64,000 bases of DNA from Candidatus Martarchaeota archaeon. GTDB taxonomy: Archaea; Micrarchaeota; Micrarchaeia; Micrarchaeales; Micrarchaeaceae. This document shows positions 20,944-31,492 of this stretch, one piece after another. Positions within the stretch are counted from its first letter, which is position 1. Each line of letters starts with the position of its first letter. The stretch is taken from NCBI GenBank assembly GCA_023473425.1, contig JAMCYG010000021.1, positions 16,839-80,838 on the forward strand. The letters run 5' to 3'. The notes beneath the pieces were generated by a model. The model was not told where the DNA came from. It saw only the letters and a list, made by a program, of their open reading frames with translations, and made no database searches. The position numbers and the translations under genes are program-made.

Positions 20944-21261
20944 TCATATCATCTTCGCTGCCTTGAGCTTTCCGATGTCCATCTGGCTGTATCTCCACAT
21001 TATGTCGCCGCGCTCATCGCCTTCTACCACCCACGGCTTCACTATAACGACATCACCTTCCTTTATCCAGAACCTCCTCCTCAGCCTGCCTGGTATCGAG
21101 CATAACCTGTCCTTTCCGTCGGTGCAGCGCACAAGGAACCTGGCAGCGCCAGCTATCTTCGAAACAGTGCCAAGTACCTCTCCTTCTTTCGGCCTTTTGA
21201 GCCTCTGCGACTCATCGTTTTCCGGTGCGCCTCTCCTCTTATCAAAATTGCTCTTCCTTAT
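20944..21261 (-). CDS. eif1A: Translation initiation factor aIF1A, apparent ATA start codon
   Basis: OB-fold factor that helps the small subunit select the start codon, 105 residues, normal length. The conserved body is complete: RLKRPKEGEVLGTVSKIAGA, then RCTDGKDRLCSIPGRLRRRF, WIKEGDVVIVKPW and GDIMWRYS. The frame is closed by TGA (21274-21276) and contains no ATG, GTG or TTG before the GTG at 21132, which lies inside the OB fold. ATA at 21261 sits exactly 5 nt after GGTG (21270-21267), the ribosome-binding pattern of its neighbours, and yields the expected short charged N-terminus. It lies 23 nt after aIF2-beta, in one operon. Confidence 0.9.
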   Translation of the reverse strand: MRKSNFDKRRGAPENDESQRLKRPKEGEVLGTVSKIAGAARFLVRCTDGKDRLCSIPGRLRRRFWIKEGDVVIVKPWVVEGDERGDIMWRYSQMDIGKLKAAKMI

Positions 21262-21284
21262 CGAAACACCTGGTCAACATCACA

Positions 21285-21818: not shown

Positions 21819-22085
21819 TATGTGGCAGATAGGCGGGAAGCTAAGGGTTTTCCGTACCGCAAATCCCTTCGGGCGGGCCAATGCTGGCTGAGTGCCATGC
21901 CGTGCCTGCGGGCTTGCATGGAAATGCTGACGCCCTGCCTCTGATGATAGTGTGACATGTGAATCGGGCCAGGCCGGAAGGAGCAACCTTAAGCGTGTCG
22001 TCGCTATGCTTCCGAGATACAGGGCCGAGTGGAAATGCAAACAACCCTCTTCCAGGGCATGGTGCAAGGCGGCTTCTGCCACACC
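21819..22085 (+). ncRNA. Signal recognition particle RNA (7S)
   Basis: Structural RNA of the SRP. The diagnostic helix-8 sequence is at about 21966-21993: CCAGGCCGGAAGGAGCAACC, the SRP54-binding asymmetric loop and GGAA tetraloop. The ends pair perfectly as helix 1: TGTGGCAGA (21821-21829) with TCTGCCACA (22075-22083), an arrangement typical of archaea. The TATA box TATTTAAAC (21792-21800) is correctly spaced for a start at about 21820. Length near 265 nt is slightly short for archaea (about 300). Confidence 0.93.
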
Positions 22086-31016: not shown

Positions 31017-31262
31017 TCAGAGGAGCGTCTCCTCAGCGACCTCCACTTCGCTTATACTCTCAAGCTTCTTGAGCCTGTCTTCTATGTCTGAAGATCCGCC
31101 TGCCGAATCCTCATAGATGAACGAGACTTTTATTACCTTGATGCCAAAGCCTATATCCTCGCTCTTTATGTCGTTGGGGCCCATACCCTTTATTTCCTCT
31201 ACCGCCTTGTCGAACGCATCGTCTTTCGGGTACACTTTGAAAACAACAACTACCTTTGACAT
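31017..31262 (-). CDS. ef1b: Elongation factor 1-beta (aEF-1B)
   Basis: Nucleotide-exchange factor that recharges EF-1A with GTP, 81 residues, a single ferredoxin-like domain. Typical sequence: VVVVFKVYPKD, then IGFGIKVIKVSFIYED and a last strand ISEVEVAEETLL. It begins 1 nt after the stop of the zinc-ribbon gene, the standard archaeal gene pair. Confidence 0.93.
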   Translation of the reverse strand: MSKVVVVFKVYPKDDAFDKAVEEIKGMGPNDIKSEDIGFGIKVIKVSFIYEDSAGGSSDIEDRLKKLESISEVEVAEETLL

Positions 31263-31263
31263 T

Positions 31264-31434
31264 TTATGGCCCCTCGAATCCGCACTCCTTGCAGATATAT
31301 ACGTTTCCTATCTCCCTGCAGTGCAGGCACCTTATTATGGTGGCTTTGCCGCACTTCGGGCACTTGAACTCTGTGTAGTCGCTCGTCAGCTTGCCGCATG
31401 AAACGCATGTTTTGCCTGGTAATACATCAGCTAT
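31264..31434 (-). CDS. Zinc-ribbon RNA-binding protein, apparent ATA start codon
   Basis: A 56-residue protein with two zinc knuckles in the pattern conserved next to archaeal EF-1beta: CVSCGK, FKCPKCGKA, IRCLHCRE, YICKECGFEGP. No ATG, GTG or TTG occurs anywhere in its frame. An in-frame TAG is immediately followed by ATA (31434-31432), and GGTG (31443-31440) stands exactly 5 nt upstream. ATA is therefore the only start that fits both the frame and the ribosome-binding pattern. A TATA element (minus-strand TTTATAGAG) lies about 35 nt upstream. The function in the family is unknown; a translation role is usually inferred. Confidence 0.88.
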   Translation of the reverse strand: MADVLPGKTCVSCGKLTSDYTEFKCPKCGKATIIRCLHCREIGNVYICKECGFEGP

Positions 31435-31492
31435 CTAATCACCCTACAGAAAAATTCAACGTCTCTATAAATTCCCGTAAAGCTATTTAGCA

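Follow-up and report, generated by a model that had tools for sequence, protein, structure and literature searches.

Probable Shine-Dalgarno-dependent initiation at AUA in two translation genes, aS21 and aIF1A, of Micrarchaeota

Among described systems, the closest to the one reported here is bacterial infC, which encodes the fidelity factor IF3, starts in many species at AUU (AUC in Streptomyces), a near-cognate AUN codon serving negative feedback, and is usually mis-annotated (PMC5472188). Streptomyces sigR, which has a GTC start and is repressed by IF3, likewise uses a non-standard start as a control point and was overlooked by annotation (PMC5472188). Archaeal aIF1 promotes discrimination against non-canonical start codons and acts together with aIF1A, which itself participates in start-codon selection (PMC6237735). 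The zinc-knuckle 30S protein aS21 of Pyrococcus abyssi was described by Coureux et al. 2020 (PMC7005279). We found no description of AUA starts in archaea in the open-access literature, and conserved initiation at AUA, AUU or AUC in archaea has, as far as that literature shows, not previously been described.

The window analysed here is a 64,000-nucleotide stretch of Candidatus Micrarchaeota DNA from a draft assembly of 734,731 bases in 27 contigs; of this genome, stretches totalling ~400 kb of 735 kb were covered, the window included. The relatives compared are Candidatus Micrarchaeota, a few of them named Mancarchaeum or Marsarchaeota, with the cultured Ca. Micrarchaeum sp. A_DKE among them. 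The features considered are the following.

20944..21261, minus strand: aIF1A, matching PF01176, with an ATA start at 21261-21259 and no standard start upstream of it or close by
21267..21271, minus strand: Shine-Dalgarno sequence AGGTG of aIF1A, 5 nt before the ATA (AGGTG-TTTCG-ATA)
31017..31262, minus strand: aEF1B (EF-1beta), with an ATG start; the control gene in the start comparison
31264..31434, minus strand: aS21 (HVO_2753-like double zinc-ribbon 30S protein), 56 codons plus TAA, with an ATA start at 31434-31432
31435..31437, minus strand: in-frame stop TAG abutting the aS21 ATA
31438..31443, minus strand: Shine-Dalgarno (SD) sequence GGTGAT of aS21, complementing the 16S tail AUCACCUC, with 5 nt between GGTG and ATA
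31466..31471, minus strand: TTTATA, a possible TATA box inside the intergenic block before aS21, recognised by sequence comparison only

The original prediction had described a zinc-ribbon gene ahead of EF-1beta whose ATA start follows an in-frame TAG, and the locus bears this out. On the minus strand, from 31434 to 31264, ATG, GTG and TTG occur at 0 of the 56 codons; the ATA (31434-31432) directly follows the TAG (31437-31435), and GGTG lies exactly 5 nt before it, within a GGTGAT (31443-31438) that ends 3 nt 5' of the start. Read 5' to 3' on this strand, the 5' end of the gene is ...TTTATAGAGACGTTGAATTTTTCTGTAGGGTGATTAG ATA GCT GAT GTA TTA CCA GGC AAA ACA TGC..., and since the TAG stands right before the ATA, no in-frame start further upstream is possible. 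The frame closes with TAA at 31266-31264. GGTGAT is complementary to the 16S tail of the window's own genome, ...ATCACCTC. The encoded protein reaches 52.9 bits with PF07754 (cut-off 33.2) and 66.5 with PRK14890 (cut-off 61), its residues C10, C13, C25, C28, C39, C48 and C51 are invariant columns across 12 relatives, and it is homologous to the archaeal 30S chains 6sw9_C (E=1.9e-09) and 6tmf_W (E=8.4e-10). Chain C of PDB entry 6sw9, a P. abyssi 30S complex, is aS21 by our own identification, judged from the chain's name in the entry. By homology, the gene at 31434-31264 is thus assigned to the 30S ribosomal protein aS21. Like P. abyssi aS21 and the HVO_2753 family, its product is a double zinc-ribbon protein of a kind found in the archaeal small subunit (PMC7005279); what is new in the Micrarchaeota gene is the start codon, the protein itself being known. 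The downstream gene, aEF1B, matches PF00736; its ATG lies 1 nt past the aS21 stop codon, and it may be translationally coupled to aS21.

The intergenic block before aS21 (31492-31444, minus strand; TGCTAAATAGCTTTACGGGA..TTATAGAGACGTTGAA) is near-identical in the sister species. The spacing of the TATA-like element within it would put the transcript start about at the aS21 SD, leaving a very short leader. In the aS21 leader, the stability of RNA structure did not exceed expectation (z -0.75). Elsewhere in the same genome, the match to 16S rRNA (L088, G000:C23:20333-22343) spans 2,011 bases against a model of 1,478 positions, which suggests an insertion or intron. For an SRP RNA in the window (21824-22080, plus strand), the top-scoring model is that of the bacterial large SRP RNA, barely over its cut-off (60.9 vs 60).

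When aS21 starts were assigned from SD position and alignment at 81 homologous loci, 43 were ATG, 32 ATA, 3 ATT and 3 ATC, with GTG and TTG at 0; 38 loci thus carry an AUH start (AUA, AUU or AUC; H = A, U or C). At 13 of these 38, no standard start exists between the flanking stops. The N-termini align column for column, I-ADVLPGK in the window against M-ADVIPGK in genome G005. A second, per-genome set obtained by another search, whose genomes overlap the first, gave 35 ATG, 17 ATA and 1 TTG, the lone TTG being in G058. Even within genera the start differs, with ATA in G003, G029 and G006 against ATG in G028, G004 and G031, respectively. On the best topology of an aS21+aEF1B tree, which rests on few columns and resolves poorly, there are 19 changes between ATG and AUH, at least 5 of them forced by well-supported branches. 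In 22 genomes of other families outside the order, most aS21 genes start with ATG; GTG and TTG occur as single cases, and G082 and G095 use AUU. The control gene behaves differently: aEF1B starts at the same loci (80 relatives) are 78 ATG and 2 ATT (Fisher p=8e-12 vs aS21), and the AUH to GUG/UUG ratio of 38:0 in aS21 stands against 11:83 among non-AUG starts genome-wide (p=1.5e-23), raw p-values that overstate independence because many of the database rows are related. Because the aS21 layout is repeated at the orthologous site in many genera, it is more than a chance arrangement. The two apparent ATT starts of aEF1B (AGTGATTAA-ATT) are at L233 and L238, where aS21 starts with ATC.

The start codon and the strength of the SD vary together. 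In AUH aS21 genes the match to GAGGTGAT is 7 bases at 17 loci, 6 at 15 and 5 at 6, and GGTG lies exactly 5 nt before the start at 35 of the 38; with AUG starts the match is mostly 3 to 5 and shorter than with AUH (Mann-Whitney p=1.3e-10), a comparison in which SD strength and start call are partly dependent because start assignment uses the SD. Independent of that assignment are the 13 AUH frames lacking a standard start, which offer no AUG, GUG or UUG alternative in frame. Between independent pairs on well-supported branches the longer SD goes with AUH (~3.8 vs 0.0; n=5 pairs, a number too small to reach significance, sign test p ~0.125 to 0.5).

The second gene in the window with the GGTG-N5-ATA layout is aIF1A, with its ATA at 21261 (minus strand), so that the claim of two such genes in 64 kb stands. 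A scan of both strands of the window for GGTG, GGAG, GAGG or AGGT followed after 4 to 7 nt by ATA at the 5' edge of open reading frames of at least 50 codons returned seven rows at five sites, among which the conserved genes are these two, aS21 and aIF1A. Across 55 genomes aIF1A starts with ATG in 38, ATA in 9, TTG in 7 and ATT in 1, with AUH over-represented among the non-AUG starts (p=6e-5). In G012 the ATA comes right after an in-frame TGA (GGTG-TTTGA-ATA), and its genus-mate G035 has GGTG-TTTTC-ATG. AUH in aS21 and AUH in aIF1A do not co-occur in every genome. The gene of aIF1 (SUI1) starts with ATG in 26 of 30 cases. An AUH start for aIF1 was rejected: the other 4 calls (2 ATA, 1 ATC, 1 GTG) fall 1-3 codons ahead of the position where the start aligns, in two cases an ATG is visible either immediately or two codons further on, and all 4 were taken as scoring artefacts.

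Genome-wide, non-standard starts of this kind are sparse. In ~2 Mb from ten genomes, triplets positioned at an SD of at least 5 bases, with cases having an upstream standard start removed, were ATG 233, TTG 59, GTG 24, ATA 7, ATT 2, ATC 2 and ACG 2. The 7 ATA exceed weakly the 3.1 expected from codon frequency (p=0.03), and AUA starts make up ~2% of SD-led genes; initiation at AUA is thus rare and specific to certain genes. The proposal that AUA is a used start codon in this lineage is supported for aS21 and aIF1A, but not for AUA as a general start codon, and the genome-wide excess that the original prediction called for is present only weakly. What carries the case is orthology, with AUH starts clustering in these two genes. 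Sporadic cases occur in other genes. PheT starts with ATA behind GGTGAT in G010 (L402) and with ATG behind a weaker SD in its genus-mate G033 (L403). Rrp42 has ACG after AGGTGATTTT in G031 (A_DKE, L410) and G108 (L411) and ATG at the site in the genus-mate G093; in the cultured A_DKE no standard start is near the ACG. In the window's own genome, a HIT protein starts with ATA behind a strong SD (L076, position 400, plus strand; ATG in G009, of another genus). Three further candidates were named from their sequence: a pilin-like protein (ATT; L073, position 2564, minus strand) and a GT4-like glycosyltransferase (ATA; L083, position 9879, minus strand), both of this genome and both with a strong SD, and PyrB of G006 (ATA).

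We hold with high confidence that AUA is the real start of aS21, and it is very probably, on sequence grounds, that of both aS21 and aIF1A, because it is conserved at the homologous position across genera, alternates with ATG in sister species and goes with a stronger SD. ATG at the aS21 site in related genomes had been named beforehand as evidence against AUA, and about half of the relatives do have it; however, the ATG/ATA alternation together with SD compensation favours its use. Since the window comes from a draft assembly, its ATA might be an error of sequencing or assembly, or the gene might have decayed, but the chance of this is negligible: the same AUA is found in independent assemblies, from the same genus (L169/G001) and from many others, and the protein is still conserved. 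It is very improbable, too, that translation begins at some other triplet of the frame, such as GTA or TTA, given that only AUA has GGTG at a distance of 5 nt and lines up with the homologues' AUG, or that AUA is recoded as methionine throughout. AUA is indeed unusually common (72% of Ile codons), but internal AUA pairs with AUY over AUG in 22 of 24 informative columns, for which reason an alternative code was rejected, and a tRNA-Ile(UAU) is present (L258, G000:C8:4641-4715; also L254 and L267). By these comparisons internal AUA reads as isoleucine and is presumably decoded by this tRNA, a type that, of 167 archaeal genomes, only 2 were reported to carry (PMC6000648). TiaS (PF08489) was found in 0 of 21 genomes and recovered in 4 of 4 control archaea, and a TiaS- or agmatidine-based reading of AUA was rejected on this ground.

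Termination-reinitiation, in which the GUG of the SD opens a three-codon mini-ORF whose UAG or UAA stop overlaps the AUA and the ribosome restarts there, might explain the out-of-frame GUG with an early stop at 28 of the 38 AUH loci. The overlapping stop, however, arises by itself whenever G or A comes after AUA, and 7 loci, AUU and AUC starts among them, lack it; at 3 the GUG is in frame. We rejected this improbable mechanism, which would in any case leave AUA as the start. A more serious contender, a real possibility if somewhat short of probable, is that AUA is a genuine start reached by neutral decay, the strong SD buffering the loss of AUG with no regulation involved. AUA is one transition from AUG, a good SD precedes every AUH start, and sporadic AUA, AUU and ACG starts in unrelated genes would fit such decay. 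Yet decay should also yield GUG and UUG, which outnumber AUH 83 to 11 genome-wide and are absent from the 81 aS21 loci, and in many genera AUH recurs in aS21, with AUG retained in the neighbouring aEF1B. This reversal suggests selection for third-position variants of AUG and, more specifically, for a weak AUN start, the class that bacterial infC uses for feedback.

The explanation that we prefer, and consider likely as a whole, is that aS21 initiates at AUA with compensation by its SD, the weak AUN start perhaps being kept for stringency feedback. The sequence comparisons present AUA as a genuine near-cognate start that depends on the SD and is found mainly in two translation genes. The initiator tRNA is conventional (anticodon CAU, A1-U72, GGG/CCC stem), and therefore its pairing with AUA would be mismatched at the third position; the SD duplex, near-complete and at optimal spacing, would anchor the 30S subunit there and offset the weak codon. 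One may speculate further that the AUN start is retained in aS21 and aIF1A so that its usage would depend on initiation stringency, creating a feedback like that of infC, a role that we infer and regard as just short of probable. For aIF1A, a start that depends on stringency would be sensible, since aIF1 discriminates against non-canonical starts together with aIF1A. For aS21 we know of no role in start-codon fidelity, and its link to stringency feedback is unproven.

By analogy, and only tentatively, this may be an archaeal counterpart of infC control, evolved independently of bacteria, in which the output of aS21 and aIF1A would report and correct initiation stringency. It would differ from infC in that, in archaea, a ribosomal protein and aIF1A take the place of the fidelity factor IF3, in that the feedback is here a proposal, and in that aIF1, the usual archaeal discriminator (PMC6237735), has an ATG start in Micrarchaeota. 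Compared with sigR, both codon and gene are different, and the regulation of sigR was shown experimentally whereas the Micrarchaeota case is known from sequence.

Gene callers limited to ATG, GTG and TTG would miss or truncate essential translation genes across the whole phylum, and where aS21 is missing from an annotation, this would be an artefact of such gene calling. Rrp42 of A_DKE, with its ACG start, is directly testable, the strain being cultured. A single gene that starts with AUG in one species and with AUA in its sister forms a natural comparative system in which to ask to what extent SD pairing can stand in for the start codon, and whether weak starts serve feedback control in archaea.
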